NCBI GenBank assembly: GCA_902625725.1
Contig: CACOCY010000005.1
Span: forward strand, 1 to 64,000
Source: an uncultured SAR116 cluster alpha proteobacterium
GTDB lineage: Bacteria; Pseudomonadota; Alphaproteobacteria; Puniceispirillales; Puniceispirillaceae
Direction: 5' to 3'
Length of the DNA: 64,000 bases
Position 1 is the first letter of the stretch, and each line of letters starts with the position of its first letter. Under the pieces are notes generated by a model that saw nothing but the letters and a program-made list of their open reading frames with translations, had not been told where the DNA came from and did not search any database. Of the stretch, positions 34,114-40,672 are shown in pieces. The position numbers and the translations under genes were made by a program.

Positions 34114-35406
34114 TTATTCGTTTGGCTTAGAAAAAGATTTTTTTTGATTGGTAATTTTGGGCTTTGTCCATATTCGAAGACTAGTAATTTGATTGTTTTC
34201 TCTGTGTATAACCCTAAACCGCATTCCATGAATATTAAATTCACCTCCTGGAAGTGGGATAGTCCTAGTCTCATATAATAATAGCCCAGCAATTGTAGAT
34301 GCATCATTATCTGGTAAATTAATATCTAAAATTCTATTTAAGTCCCTAATAGTAACGTTGCCGTCTACTATATATGAGCCATCTGCCTGTGCTGTACATC
34401 CCGCCAATTCTTCATCATGCTCATCATCGATATCACCAACAATTTCCTCAATTATATCTTCCAAGGTTACGATACCGCGGAAATCACCATATTCATCTAC
34501 AACAATTGCAAAATGTTCTCTCCTTGTTCTAAATGCTTGAAGCTGGTCTGCTAATAATGTAGTTTCTGGGATGAAATAGGTTGGACTTGCTATTTTTGCA
34601 ACATCAAACCCCTTAATTTTTTTGTTATTTGAGTTCTGTAGAGCTCTTAAGAGGTCTTTTACATGCAGTACACCTATAATATTTTCTGGCTTTTCAGAAT
34701 AAATGGGCAAGCGTGTATGAGGAGAATTAAGCACAAATGACAAAATATTTTCGGGTTTATCTTCAGCATTTACCATTGATACAGAGCCCCGATGTGTCAT
34801 TATCTCATCTACAGTCAACTCTGACAAATCCAAAACTGAAGATAACATCGCTTTTGTTTCTTTTAGTTCAGAAGCGCTCTCTCCCATTTGAAGGTCAATC
34901 ATTCCTCTAAGTTCTTCTTCTCTATCTTCTGAAGTTTCTGAGTTTCTTCCCAAGAAAATTAGGGAGATCCATCTCATCGCAATTGTAAGAGGAGTTAAAA
35001 TTAGAACAATGAATCTAACCGGACTTGCAACTAAAAGGGCAAATTGATTTGCATTTTTTATTGCGTACGTTTTAGGTAATACTTCAGCAAAAATTGTGAT
35101 TAGAATTGTCATTACTAAAGTTGCAACAAAAACACCTGAGTCTTCAAAAAATGCTATTGCTGCTGAAGTAGCAAGCGCAGATGCTAATACATTGACAGCA
35201 TTATTCCCTATGAGTATTGCACTTATAAGGGAATCTTTATCATCTTTAAGTTTTTCTACTAATAACGCATTTCTATTCCCGTTATTAGCAAGTTGACGCA
35301 TTTTTGCATCAGAAGCTGCAGTAAGTCCAGTTTCAGAGCTTGAAAAAAACCCCGATGCCAAAATCAAAATAATTATTGAAACGATCAAAGTCCAATATTC
35401 AAACAT
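34114..35406 (-). CDS. CorC/HlyC-type CNNM and CBS domain membrane protein
   Basis: 430 residues from MFEYWTLIVS (the 20 codons upstream overlap aroB and look noncoding). Order: DUF21/CNNM membrane domain (SGFFSSSETGLTAAS), two CBS domains (about 200-320), and a CorC/HlyC C-terminal domain. Relatives are proposed Mg2+/Co2+ efflux proteins. The start overlaps the aroB stop by 8 bases, so it is translated after aroB. This aroK-aroB-corC order is typical in alphaproteobacteria. Confidence 0.9.
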   Translation of the reverse strand: MFEYWTLIVSIIILILASGFFSSSETGLTAASDAKMRQLANNGNRNALLVEKLKDDKDSLISAILIGNNAVNVLASALATSAAIAFFEDSGVFVATLVMTILITIFAEVLPKTYAIKNANQFALLVASPVRFIVLILTPLTIAMRWISLIFLGRNSETSEDREEELRGMIDLQMGESASELKETKAMLSSVLDLSELTVDEIMTHRGSVSMVNAEDKPENILSFVLNSPHTRLPIYSEKPENIIGVLHVKDLLRALQNSNNKKIKGFDVAKIASPTYFIPETTLLADQLQAFRTRREHFAIVVDEYGDFRGIVTLEDIIEEIVGDIDDEHDEELAGCTAQADGSYIVDGNVTIRDLNRILDINLPDNDASTIAGLLLYETRTIPLPGGEFNIHGMRFRVIHRENNQITSLRIWTKPKITNQKKSFSKPNE

Positions 35407-36520
35407 GATTGACTCCCTTAGCCATAAAAAATGATGTAATTTCTTCTTCTGATATATTTGGCACAATACATGCCGAACCGATTTTATTTGCTAAAACAAA
35501 AGTTAATTTACCAGAAATATTTTTTTTATCCTTTTTCATGTGTTCAATAATCACAGAAATCGGCGCTTTTCCAGCTGGTAGTGATGCGTAATTATCGGGT
35601 AATCCAACTTGCAAAAGATGATTGTGAACACGAATGGCGTCTTCCTTTGCACACATCTTTCTGATGACAGAAAAGTCAAACGCTAGTCCCAAACCGGCCG
35701 CTACTGCCTCTCCATGCAATAATTGGCCATCATAATTAGCGACAGCCTCAAAAGCATGTGCAAAAGTATGGCCAAGATTTAGCAGAGCTCGCATACTCTT
35801 TTCTGTTTCATCTGCGGCCACTATTTTTGCTTTCATCTCGCAAGAGCGTTTTACAGCATATATTATTTTATCCTTATCTAGCGACAAAACACCAGACCAG
35901 TTATCTTCTAACCAAGAAAAAAAATTAGCATCACCAAGAAGTCCGTACTTTACAATTTCGGCATAGCCGGCAAGCAATTCCCTTTTTGGGAGTGAAATTA
36001 AAAGATTTGTATCAGCCAGCACCAATTTTGGCTGGTGAAATGCCCCAATTAAATTTTTACCAGCCTTTGCATTTATTCCTGTTTTGCCTCCAACAGAACT
36101 ATCGACTTGAGCTAAAAGGCTGGTCGGTATTTGGATGTATTGTGTTCCTCTCAATAAAACCGCAGATACAAAACCAACTAAATCTCCTACTACACCCCCA
36201 CCCAGCGCAATAAGAACAGTATTCCGGTCGATTCCGATATTTAGTATGTCATTGCAAACTTTATCTAAAACAGACAAAGATTTGGAGGTTTCCCCTGCAG
36301 GCACTTGTAATATTTCCACCCTGTCGCAAATTGGCATTATGGCTTTTGCAAGTGAGTTTTGATATATTGGTCCAATAATTGTATCAGAAATAATGACAAC
36401 TTGTTTTTTTACGATAAGATCGGCAAGATATTTATCCGCCATTACTAATAAATCAGGACCTATCAAAACGGGGTAAGACCTATCTCCCAGTCCAACAGAT
36501 ATCTGCTCAATCACAGTCAT
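35399..36520 (-). CDS. aroB: 3-dehydroquinate synthase
   Basis: Second shikimate step, DAHP to 3-dehydroquinate, NAD- and zinc-dependent. 373 residues. NAD loop GGGVVGDLVGF, the active-site segment QVDSSVGGKTGINAKAGKNLIG, and zinc ligands in the NLGHTFAHAFE and LLHGEAVAAG regions are present. Its ATG overlaps the aroK stop by one base (TAATG). Confidence 0.96.
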   Translation of the reverse strand: MTVIEQISVGLGDRSYPVLIGPDLLVMADKYLADLIVKKQVVIISDTIIGPIYQNSLAKAIMPICDRVEILQVPAGETSKSLSVLDKVCNDILNIGIDRNTVLIALGGGVVGDLVGFVSAVLLRGTQYIQIPTSLLAQVDSSVGGKTGINAKAGKNLIGAFHQPKLVLADTNLLISLPKRELLAGYAEIVKYGLLGDANFFSWLEDNWSGVLSLDKDKIIYAVKRSCEMKAKIVAADETEKSMRALLNLGHTFAHAFEAVANYDGQLLHGEAVAAGLGLAFDFSVIRKMCAKEDAIRVHNHLLQVGLPDNYASLPAGKAPISVIIEHMKKDKKNISGKLTFVLANKIGSACIVPNISEEEITSFFMAKGVNHV

Positions 36521-37092
36521 TATATTCCCTCATTATTCGCCTTTTTGTATTTTAGAACATCTCGTTCCAGGAGTGCTGGAATTATTATTTTTAGAGACTG
36601 GCTCGACGAAAGATTGTCGGTATCAATCACAAAATGCGCTTGTTGATAGTAAAACTCTCGTTTTCGATGCAAATCGGTTAGGGTTAAAAGTGGGTCGCCT
36701 CTTGCAAGCAAGGGGCGGTTTTTTAAATTTTCCATCCTAGATAACAATGTTTCTGGTTTTGCGCGAAGCCATATAGTAAATGCACCACCTTTTAATATTT
36801 TTCTCGTATTTGCAGAAATAAAGGCTCCTCCACCCGTTGATAAAATCATTGGAGGGCGTTTTAGAATTTCTCCCATAACGCGGTGTTCAATATCTCGAAA
36901 CTTTTCTTCTCCACTCAGTTCAAAAATTTCTCGAACTGATATGCCGGCACGTTTAACGATTTCCTCGTCACTATCAACAAAATTTATTGATAATGATTTG
37001 GCAAAATATCTTCCAAGTGTTGTTTTCCCGGCTCCCATCAATCCAATAAGTGCTACGGTATGCGATAAATGGTAACTCTGTTTCTGTTTCAT
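36520..37092 (-). CDS. aroK: shikimate kinase
   Basis: Phosphorylates shikimate with ATP. 190 residues, slightly long from short tails. Walker A GLMGAGKTT, shikimate-binding DSDEEI and GGGAF, and the lid arginine in LKNRPLL are intact. First gene of the aroK-aroB-corC set. It is divergent from the small membrane peptide gene at 37309 with about 215 AT-rich bases between. Confidence 0.95.
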   Translation of the reverse strand: MKQKQSYHLSHTVALIGLMGAGKTTLGRYFAKSLSINFVDSDEEIVKRAGISVREIFELSGEEKFRDIEHRVMGEILKRPPMILSTGGGAFISANTRKILKGGAFTIWLRAKPETLLSRMENLKNRPLLARGDPLLTLTDLHRKREFYYQQAHFVIDTDNLSSSQSLKIIIPALLERDVLKYKKANNEGI

Positions 37093-37308: not shown

Positions 37309-37446
37309 ATGAGAATGTTTTTTACAGTTATAATTTTAATTATAATGAGCATGGGTTTAGGTGGAGTATTCTTGTCTAATTGGAATATACCAGCACCAAC
37401 GAAAATGGTTTCACAAGTTTTAGATGACAGTAAATTCAGGAAATAA
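37309..37446 (+). CDS. 45-residue single-pass membrane peptide
   Basis: A short frame, M-R-M then a hydrophobic segment (about 4-23, FFTVIILIIMSMGLGGVFLS), then WNIPAPTKMVSQVLDDSKFRK on the far side. The start may instead be GTG 37297; AAGGAG at 37288-37293 is close to both, at awkward spacings. The stop is one base from the next gene's ATG (TAATATG), so the two are coupled. From memory, short peptides with W-D/N-IPAPT occur at this place in other alphaproteobacteria; no function is known. Confidence 0.6.
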   Translation: MRMFFTVIILIIMSMGLGGVFLSNWNIPAPTKMVSQVLDDSKFRK

Positions 37447-37447
37447 T

Positions 37448-39652
37448 ATGCTACTTGGGGCAAGAATTGTAATTGCTAGTGTTTTCTTATTTGCTGAAGC
37501 ACAATTAGGATATTCTCAAGACATCATTTACAATAGGGACTCTCCGGCAAAAGATAATGTAACTTCGTCACAATATTTACCTCAGAATTCTCTACAAATA
37601 TCTTTGCCTCCGACGCAATTTCCAGTTGAAGAAGAGTTGACCGCGGAAGACAACGACGACATTTACCCTGAATTAAATTTGTTTGATTTAACAGCGACAC
37701 TTGGAGAGGAGAAGGCTGAAAACCAAACAGAAGCTTTGTCGATAGATAGTTCCGATATCTCTGTCCCTGCAAATGAGAATACAAATAAGGAAAATCTGTC
37801 CACCTCAAAGAAACAAACAACAAACGTTAGCACATCAAAAAATGACATAATATTCAATCAAGAAAATAGTATTTTAGGTGATAATTCCTCTAATCTTGAC
37901 AAACTAATCAGTGAACTATTTCCAATAGAACAGATTGAACTAGAAAACAAAAATAATTTACAAAGTGATAGTGCGCCTCAACCTGCTATAGCAGAGAATG
38001 CTTTCCAAGAACAAATACAGCAGACTAGTAACTTCGATTCCCCCAACGTCAGCGTTGGTTTGCGTGAATTATCTGGTGTGGGATTAGTAACAACTGGGAT
38101 TGCAAACTGGCAACAACGAAAAATGCCTTTTAGCACATTACTTTGGTCTGGCTCTAAACCAGAAAATATTTCATATTTATTTGAGATTAGCGAACCCTAT
38201 GGTTCATCTAAAACAATAAACTCACTCGTTTATTCTTCCATAATCAGAAATTCCGCCCCTCCAATGGGGGTTGCAGGTAATCCTGATTTATCGCAATCAT
38301 TAGTAGTCTCGAGAATGGAATGGTTAGCAAGAGCGGGAAGGTCTGAAGCTCTAGCCGATTTCATTAGAAAGTTGCCTGAGGATGATAACAGATGGGATGA
38401 ATGGCAGCGCTGGTTAGGAGCTTATGATTTACTGTCGTATAATGATTCTGTAACTTGTGATAAAGCTGACAGAAAAGTATCCCAAAAATTTGATGTTTTC
38501 TGGCTTAAAATCCAGATAGTATGTAAAGTAATTGATGGTGATTTTGAGGATGCTGTCTTCTTGGCAGAATTAATGAGCACGAGTGGCGAAGAAGATCCTT
38601 TATTTTTTATGCTGCTTGAAAATGTTCAGTCTACCCAGCCAAATAACTTAACTTCAGTCCAGTCTTCTTTAACGCCGCTTCATTTAATTTTGATGGATTT
38701 AGCCCAGTCGCAGATTGAGTGGCATCAAATTTCTGAGCTTCCAGCTTCGATGATGCACGCAAGTAATCTTATCAAAAATACAACACGAGAAGCTAGACTA
38801 GCATTTGCAATGAAGCAGATTTTGCAGCAAAGTGATGCAGCATTTGAAGCAGCAACACTAATTCGTAGTCTATACGATTCTGAGCGTCCGTTGGAGACTG
38901 CGTATAGCATATTGCAAAATACAAGAGGAAACTTGCGACTTATAGCAAGTGCAGAAATTTACTCGGCATTGGCAGGAAATATATTTCAATCTGAGATTCA
39001 AGGAGATTATGATCTTCTTTTCTTGGCAGCCTTCCGAGAGGAGGTCAAATTTGGCAATGGCAAAGCACTGCTTCCATTTTATGCTGAATTAGCGAAAACA
39101 CGACTAACAACAGATTCCTTGCCTCCAATATCTCTAGAATTAAGACCGCAATTTGAAAAAATAGTTTTCTTAAATGAGTTTAAAAATACTTCAAGCCAAG
39201 ATATGTTGCGCTCACTTGAAGAAATGCATACTTTGTTGCTGGTAATTGATGAAAATGTAGTTAAACAACCGTCCTTCGAAGTGTTTCAGCAATTGGGATT
39301 GTGGCATCTTATTCCTGTTTTTGCTCAGGCATCTATGATAGAAACACCTTTAACTTGGCTTGAAATAGCGTCAACAAAGGTGGAGAAACCGATAGCCTAC
39401 GAGAACTTAGAATTAGAACCAACATTAAAAAAGGCAATGGTTGAAGCATCGGAAAGCAAGAGAACAGCGGAGACAATTTTAATTATATCTGCATTAATTG
39501 AAAAGCATGATCTCAATCAAATATCAGCATCCGATTTAGCATTAGTAATAAATTCGTTGCAAGAAATTGGGTTTGATGATACCGCCAATGAATTAATTGA
39601 AGAAATTATCATCTCTAATCTGTTAGATTTATATTGGGGACAGGGGACATAA
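37448..39652 (+). CDS. large secreted helical-repeat protein of unknown function
   Basis: 734 residues from ATG 37448; eight codons further upstream are possible but would spoil the signal peptide MLLGARIVIASVFLFAEAQLGYS. After the signal comes a long Asn/Ser/Glu/Asp-rich low-complexity region (about 25-185), then a helical, TPR-like solenoid to the end. A recurring theme is ARAGRSEALADFIRKLP ... DDNRWDEWQRWLGAYDLL ... FDVFWLKIQIVCKV. No catalytic motif recognised. It sits between the small membrane peptide and xerD. A periplasmic scaffolding role is only inference. Confidence 0.75.
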   Translation: MLLGARIVIASVFLFAEAQLGYSQDIIYNRDSPAKDNVTSSQYLPQNSLQISLPPTQFPVEEELTAEDNDDIYPELNLFDLTATLGEEKAENQTEALSIDSSDISVPANENTNKENLSTSKKQTTNVSTSKNDIIFNQENSILGDNSSNLDKLISELFPIEQIELENKNNLQSDSAPQPAIAENAFQEQIQQTSNFDSPNVSVGLRELSGVGLVTTGIANWQQRKMPFSTLLWSGSKPENISYLFEISEPYGSSKTINSLVYSSIIRNSAPPMGVAGNPDLSQSLVVSRMEWLARAGRSEALADFIRKLPEDDNRWDEWQRWLGAYDLLSYNDSVTCDKADRKVSQKFDVFWLKIQIVCKVIDGDFEDAVFLAELMSTSGEEDPLFFMLLENVQSTQPNNLTSVQSSLTPLHLILMDLAQSQIEWHQISELPASMMHASNLIKNTTREARLAFAMKQILQQSDAAFEAATLIRSLYDSERPLETAYSILQNTRGNLRLIASAEIYSALAGNIFQSEIQGDYDLLFLAAFREEVKFGNGKALLPFYAELAKTRLTTDSLPPISLELRPQFEKIVFLNEFKNTSSQDMLRSLEEMHTLLLVIDENVVKQPSFEVFQQLGLWHLIPVFAQASMIETPLTWLEIASTKVEKPIAYENLELEPTLKKAMVEASESKRTAETILIISALIEKHDLNQISASDLALVINSLQEIGFDDTANELIEEIIISNLLDLYWGQGT

Positions 39653-39754: not shown

Positions 39755-40672
39755 GTGTCTAGTATATTAGCGGATAAGAATATTAGTTTGTTTTTGCAAG
39801 CTTTAGCAGCTGAAACAGGAGCATCGAAAAATACACTATCTGCTTATGAAAGTGATTTGATTATTGCAGATAATTATATTCAGGCCTTCTTCAAGACCAA
39901 TCTATCTTTTGCAGATGAGCATGAACTAACTTCTTGTCTTGCTTTCTGGAAAAAGGAAGGACAGTCCCCAAAGACAATTTTAAGGAGAATCAGCGCACTA
40001 AAAAATATGATGAAGTGGTTGGTTTCTGATGGGTACAGAGAAGATAACCCTGCCACATGGCTTGACAGTCCAAAACTTCCCAAATCTATTCCAACTAGCC
40101 TTTCTGAACCAGAAATAATTACTTTATTAGAGGCAACAGAAAAATTAACTTCGCCTAATAATTTAAGAATGTCAGCTGGCATGGAAATTTTATATAGCAC
40201 AGGATTACGCATTTCAGAACTGCTTCAATTACGGCGAGGTGACATTATTTCCGGAAAAGGTCTAATTATGGTTCGAGGTAAGGGGGGTAGAGAGCGTTTG
40301 GTGCCACTCACAGACATTGCAATTTCAAAAACAAAAACATGGTTAGAAATACGTGATGCTGATGGACCTGACACCTGTCATGAACAGCTATTAGCTCTCC
40401 CAAACGAGCAAAAGGTAACGCGTCAGAAATTCTCGGTACTTTTAAAAAAAATTGCTGTAATTGCTAACATAGACACAATGCGCGTCAGCCCCCATAAGCT
40501 TAGACACTCTTTTGCAACGCATATGTTAAATCGAGGAGCGGATTTAAGAAGCTTACAAATGATGCTTGGACATGCAGATATTTCAACTACACAAATATAT
40601 ACCAAAACACGCCCAGAACGTCTGCTGGGACTAGTTTCAACAAATCATCCTCTAGCTCAAAAAGAAAAATAG
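39755..40672 (+). CDS. xerD: site-specific tyrosine recombinase XerD
   Basis: Resolves chromosome dimers at dif with XerC. 305 residues with the full catalytic set: R152 (TGLRISEL), K176 (GKGGRER), H247 and R250 (HKLRHSF), H273 (GHADIS), Y282 (TTQIYT). GTG start at 39755. Length and motifs fit a housekeeping Xer protein rather than a phage integrase. The call of XerD over XerC rests on the aroK/aroB context. No dif site was identified in the window. Confidence 0.9.
   Translation: MSSILADKNISLFLQALAAETGASKNTLSAYESDLIIADNYIQAFFKTNLSFADEHELTSCLAFWKKEGQSPKTILRRISALKNMMKWLVSDGYREDNPATWLDSPKLPKSIPTSLSEPEIITLLEATEKLTSPNNLRMSAGMEILYSTGLRISELLQLRRGDIISGKGLIMVRGKGGRERLVPLTDIAISKTKTWLEIRDADGPDTCHEQLLALPNEQKVTRQKFSVLLKKIAVIANIDTMRVSPHKLRHSFATHMLNRGADLRSLQMMLGHADISTTQIYTKTRPERLLGLVSTNHPLAQKEK

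Follow-up and report, generated by a model that had tools for sequence, protein, structure and literature searches.

A conserved peptide gene and an overlapping gene for a putatively exported solenoid protein beside xerD in Alphaproteobacteria

In an uncultured SAR116 cluster alphaproteobacterium (genome G000, 2.0 Mb), the gap between the divergent aroK-aroB-corC genes and xerD holds the genes for a 45-residue peptide and for a much larger protein, which raises the question of what these two products do and whether they act together. A preliminary description, made from the sequence of the window analysed here (64,000 nucleotides, positions 1 to 64,000 of contig CACOCY010000005.1), had proposed that they form a working pair, with the peptide anchored in the inner membrane and the large protein located in the periplasm. 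The open reading frames are found exactly where that description placed them (Table 1), and the locus was evaluated with respect to its conservation, the junction of the two genes, the predicted properties of both products and the genomes in which one gene occurs without the other.

Table 1. Features of the locus, with positions as numbered in the window
Feature	Position	Strand	Basis
corC, beyond aroB	34114-35466	-	ORF list, family loci
aroB, beyond aroK	35399-36520	-	ORF list, family loci
aroK, divergent neighbour	36520..37092	-	ORF list, family loci
45-aa single-pass inner-membrane peptide (predicted)	37309..37446	+	homologues, purifying selection
Overlap, 23 nt: peptide codons GAT GAC hold the out-of-frame ATG of the large gene	37424..37446	+	conserved ATG, third-base T
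Large protein, probable full CDS, 742 aa	37424..39652	+	ORF list; equivalent ATG kept in 130/139 loci
Large protein from the start first described, 734 aa	37448-39652	+	ORF list
Signal-peptide-like N-terminus of large protein	37448..37522	+	hydrophobic core then ...AEAQLGYSQ/D, type I, no lipobox
Acidic/Asn-rich linker of large protein, presumably disordered	37523..38029	+	poorly conserved in alignment A2
TPR-like all-alpha solenoid body (predicted), residues 195-734	38030..39649	+	A4 alignment, AF2
xerD, downstream neighbour, kept class-wide	39755..40672	+	ORF list, family and class loci

Layout and distribution of the locus

Wherever the contig reaches far enough, the peptide gene, the large gene, xerD and aroK were found together in all 41 of 41 loci of the same family, and in nearly all of 40 loci drawn from the class corC-aroB-aroK runs divergently from the peptide gene, the large gene and xerD. 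The same order was identified in Thalassobaculum, Sneathiella, Magnetovibrio, Pelagibius and Azospirillum brasilense (where the contig is long enough) and is also kept in remote class members, in agreement with the similar pair at this place in other alphaproteobacteria mentioned in the preliminary description. In Kiloniella (L162, L163, L164, L167 and L168) the peptide gene, the large gene and xerD remain united and aroK-aroB-corC is gone from the flank. Two contigs titled Candidatus Marinimicrobia (L213 and L217) carry a typical alphaproteobacterial locus, and these bins are therefore probably mislabelled or mixed. A promoter scan gave a result no better than shuffles.

Of the 61 genomes belonging to the same family, the large gene was detected in 57, including 28 of the 28 high-quality ones. 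A broader profile (A4) detected it in 262 of a sample of 387 genomes of the class, and profile A5 detected the peptide in 275; both were present in 226, the large gene only in 36, the peptide only in 49 and neither in 76. These genomes are a sample, the 46-column profile of a transmembrane peptide has limited sensitivity, and chance may account for some of the peptide matches near E 0.01. At five loci (L225, L226, L230, L231 and L235) the peptide is readable by eye at the expected place, so that some of the cases with the large gene only reflect the limits of this profile. The co-occurrence of the two genes corresponds to an odds ratio of 9.7, in which kinship is ignored. In a sample of 299 genomes from the phylum, all 54 matches to the large protein fall within Alphaproteobacteria, and a contig scan with the window protein alone as the query returned no relatives. 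As part of the overall explanation proposed below, and with the same reserve, the locus may be regarded as ancestral in alphaproteobacteria. Some relatives of the large protein are presumably annotated as 'antifreeze glycopeptide polyprotein'; no literature was found under this name, nor was any account of the pair. A search of PMC5513736 gave no result for hypothetical or TPR genes.

The overlapping start and the predicted products

The two genes were originally described as separated by a single base, which is correct if the large protein starts at 37448, a position with a local AGGA that may still be its start. However, its reading frame is open from an ATG at 37424, in which case the genes do not have a gap but overlap by 23 nt, and since 130 of 139 loci carry an ATG at the equivalent place, 37424 is probably the true start. 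The coupling is thus tighter than had been claimed. The same frame relation between the two genes was observed in 138 of 150 loci, and the 139 loci referred to are those with an [ND][DES] motif, the ATG lying inside the [Asn/Asp][Asp/Glu] codons of the peptide. The first codon of this motif has T as its third base in 132 of 139 loci, against 77.5 expected from the codon use of the large gene itself, and in 33 of 36 loci, against 10, within the subset in which the expected number is low; at a control Asp in the peptide, T and C were counted 49 and 41 times, respectively. While the loci are not independent, so that p-values are overstated, the effect holds across base composition. Selection of this third-base T, together with retention of the IPAP residues, points to two layers of selection on the same stretch, one on the peptide and one on the embedded start of the large gene.

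The peptide (MRMFFTVIILIIMSMGLGGVFLSNWNIPAPTKMVSQVLDDSKFRK, with its stop codon at 37444-37446) is a 45-residue single-pass protein, as first described, with a basic N-terminus, a single hydrophobic segment and the tail NWNIPAPTKMVSQVLDDSKFRK. The hydrophobic segment is followed by the conserved tail W-x-IPAP-T-x3-V-x-x-V-x-x-[ND][DE], which is predicted to be extracytoplasmic. Within the genus of the window, dN/dS of the peptide is mostly about 0.1-0.25, indicating purifying selection far above chance, and the third base of the IPAP codons varies freely where the residues do not, as expected of selection at the protein level. The positively charged N-terminal side suggests that the N-terminus lies inside and that the C-terminal IPAP/VEKVIPND tail is periplasmic. 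Neither the peptide alone nor a 48-member alignment matched Pfam or NCBIfam above cut-off, and a sequence search of the PDB gave no relative. In size and topology it resembles CcoS/FixS and CcmD, which are small single-pass accessory subunits, but its FixS score (PF03597, 11.2 bits) is below the gathering cut-off of 23.1, and matches of the CcoS/FixS and CcmD types are far under cut-off and not common to the members of the peptide family.

The large protein agrees, in its open reading frame and in its AlphaFold2 (AF2) model, with the preliminary description of a 734-residue exported protein with a disordered, acidic/Asn-rich start and a helical-repeat body. The acidic/Asn-rich stretch reaches about residue 200 and is followed in the model by an all-helical body. 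Among its relatives, 140 of 148 possess a hydrophobic core within the first 60 residues, 92 have AxA after that core and three have a lipobox-like motif, which is absent from the window protein. Furthermore, Cys337 and Cys359 (window numbering) are near-invariant in the A4 alignment and are located on adjacent helices; they probably form a disulfide, consistent with an oxidising periplasm. The signal peptides and the cysteine pair point to export, and together with the positive N-terminal side of the peptide they accord with the compartments originally assigned to the two products.

The predicted body is an all-helical solenoid (pLDDT 76.5, pTM 0.78), and a Thalassobaculum relative (L141) was modelled as a TPR-like alpha-solenoid with pLDDT 91.3 and pTM 0.91; in both models nearly all helices follow one another, as in the TPR superhelix of antiparallel helix pairs. 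At E 0.01 none of 65 members matched a TPR family profile, and a single member weakly matched ARM_TT21_2nd. The protein had no Pfam or NCBIfam match above cut-off, either alone or as a 65-member alignment, and the PDB sequence search gave no relative; a clear match to a known family with a different role, which the preliminary description had named as evidence against its reading, was absent from both the HMM and the structure searches. The best structural matches were generic TPR, PPR and other solenoid helical repeats, including BcsC, Slt70, LapB and OGT, and since their Z values lie in the range common to helical repeats (for repeats, the search tool cautions that Z under about 13 may reflect only a common arrangement), no kinship to a particular match was read from them. 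The BcsC TPR region, the Slt70 U-domain, LbcA and CpoB are exported all-helical repeat solenoids, as the large protein is predicted to be, although none of these periplasmic TPR-type solenoids is matched by it in sequence, and a TPR Pfam match, a catalytic or porin domain and a lipobox are absent from the window protein. BcsC aligned with the model of the relative at Z 9.7 (rmsd 2.4, 78 residues), as may be expected of common helical repeats; Slt70 has a C-terminal SLT catalytic domain, of which Pfam and NCBIfam searches found no trace here; adaptor lipoproteins of the LbcA/NlpI type carry a lipobox; and CpoB is encoded with tol-pal genes, in contrast to the aroK and xerD neighbours of the present gene. 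LapA and LapB (YciM) are a small membrane protein and a TPR protein encoded side by side. The LapB structure aligned with the model of the relative at Z 8.8 (rmsd 17.2, 208 residues), but its TPR part is cytoplasmic with an anchor of its own whereas the large protein is predicted to be exported, no LapB domain was matched by the latter, and a single borderline LapA match (E 0.09) was obtained among 48 peptides.

Genomes that hold one gene without the other

At least eight family groups keep the peptide with its conserved tail and with xerD next to it but lack the large gene, and at most of these loci xerD starts within about 60 nt of the peptide stop. The peptide of Azospirillum halopraeferens (L218) ends in WDMPAPSRTVEKVIPDDRFPR and is followed after 46 nt by the opening of the xerD reading frame; the A4 profile found no large gene anywhere in this genome. 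Further cases are L244 (G352), L245 and L246 (G171, G324), L249 (G124), L251 (G071), L254 and L255 (G297, G423), L257 and L258 (G359, G293) and L261 (G136), along with L259 and L260 (G191, G400), in which the peptide match is weaker; in most of these loci the large gene is taken to be absent because the profile does not find it and the interval between the peptide and xerD is too short to hold it. As other members of several of these groups do have the large gene, independent losses are likely. The GATGAC with the overlapping ATG persists at 6091-6096 of L218, and at the same place in L244, though the large gene is absent, and in L259 and L260 xerD is immediately preceded by a peptide whose C-terminus is extended by a long stretch rich in Pro and Asn. 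The reverse case, which the preliminary description had named as evidence against the pair, is rarer: in G440 (L101, 4962-6872), a genome from the same taxonomic order, the large gene adjoins xerD and aroK and no peptide is recognisable, the best match having E 0.155 genome-wide and 1.5 within the locus. The proposed working pair is supported as regards its tight coupling but not as an obligate one. The conserved tail need not bind the large protein, since it is conserved where that protein is gone, and the peptide appears to be a core component to which the large protein is coupled but losable.

The peptide was also found in two degenerate genomes, G239 (1,518,636 bp in one contig) and G314 (1.5 Mb), which share a genus label with G439. 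ftsZ (TIGR00065) was not found in either, and is present in G439, G378, G000 and 13 of 14 control genomes. For Candidatus Endolissoclinum faulkneri, one strain of which has a genome of 1.48 Mbp with 57% coding density and no ftsZ, the nearest characterised species is T. litoreum (PMC3851785), and G239 and G314 almost certainly represent this symbiont. In the 10 kb around the peptide of G239, corC and the peptide are present and aroK, aroB, the large gene and xerD were not found; both genomes have lost these four genes around the peptide. Between the two peptide genes, 14 codons differ synonymously and 13 non-synonymously (dN 0.18; dS 2.7, which over 45 codons is near saturation), and KWEIP and TAPVRKIIP are intact in both, which would hardly be expected of a neutral 45-codon reading frame. 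The short reading frames, at 1495-1692 of L250 (G239) and 1498-1635 of L252 (G314), appear as conserved islands amid degraded intergenic DNA and are possibly unannotated in those genomes. Retention of the peptide in these symbionts indicates that it is independent of the large protein, of FtsZ and of aroK, aroB and xerD at the locus, and as it outlives the large gene even here, an independent and basic function in the envelope is probable.

Possible functions of the two products

The two genes are a real genetic unit, and their products probably meet in the envelope. Our best explanation, held tentatively and at somewhat short of even confidence, is that the peptide is a core inner-membrane microprotein, which would either act as a small subunit of a basic, housekeeping envelope machine or regulate it, and that the large protein, a Sec-exported TPR-like solenoid with no specific known relative, would serve this machine as an accessory periplasmic scaffold or adaptor. 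As its translation usually starts within the peptide gene, both proteins would be made together in a set ratio. When xerD, aroB and aroK are controlled for, distances between peptides correlate with those between large proteins (partial r 0.34-0.38), those of the peptide against xerD, aroB and aroK give a partial r of about 0, and those of the large protein and xerD 0.46-0.48; because the large gene evolves fastest and tracks relatedness best, the first correlation is weak evidence and provides mild support for a link.

The gene overlap, the co-occurrence and this partial correlation would also be expected if the peptide existed to anchor the large protein at the inner membrane with its tail in the solenoid groove, and Pex5 and Trip8b, whose TPR solenoids bind C-terminal tails, are among the structural matches; yet the family groups that keep the peptide and its tail without the large gene, and G440 with the large gene only, make such an obligate arrangement unlikely. 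That either gene can be lost, and that the aroK/xerD order is conserved overall with no obvious functional logic, would equally suit two unrelated envelope genes that have an operon and a translational overlap in common but no functional link, an explanation to which we assign the same low probability in view of the selection on the overlapping start and the odds ratio, kinship ignored, for co-occurrence. At the other extreme, the overlapping start and its third-base T might mean that the peptide is a leader reading frame whose translation sets that of the large gene and has no further role, but protein-level conservation of the transmembrane segment and IPAP, and retention where the large gene is absent, largely rule this out and render it very improbable.

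Two more specific roles may be considered for the large protein. The linkage to xerD is the tightest of the locus, being kept in Kiloniella after aroK had moved away, and Slt70 was matched structurally at Z 9.3 (rmsd 4.5, 145 residues), which would fit a peptidoglycan or division scaffold resembling the Slt70 U-domain or CpoB and tied to XerD-dependent chromosome resolution. Helical repeats nevertheless commonly give Z values of this size, a catalytic domain is absent, and the peptide survives without ftsZ although the large gene does not, leaving this role improbable. A periplasmic flagellar scaffold similar to PflA is suggested by a Campylobacter flagellar periplasmic scaffold among weak Foldseek matches and by co-occurrence with FlgI above chance, but 79 of the 262 genomes with the large gene have no FlgI match and 48 FlgI-positive genomes have no match to the large gene; since the large gene is not limited to FlgI-positive genomes, a general role of this kind is largely ruled out and hardly credible.

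Returning to the core microprotein with an accessory scaffold, it is possible, and stated here with more caution than that explanation itself, that the peptide is a previously unrecognised alphaproteobacterial core microprotein, needed even without FtsZ, and that the large protein is a class-specific scaffold of the same machine. The locus occurs in about two thirds of the sampled alphaproteobacterial species and neither protein is represented in Pfam or NCBIfam, while the overlapping start offers a clean case of peptide-linked translation. Azospirillum halopraeferens, which lacks the large gene, and A. brasilense, which carries it, provide a natural comparison by which the two functions may be separated. 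Since two symbiont strains that lack FtsZ and have only about 770 genes retain the 45-codon gene, it is likely to be important in a basic process.
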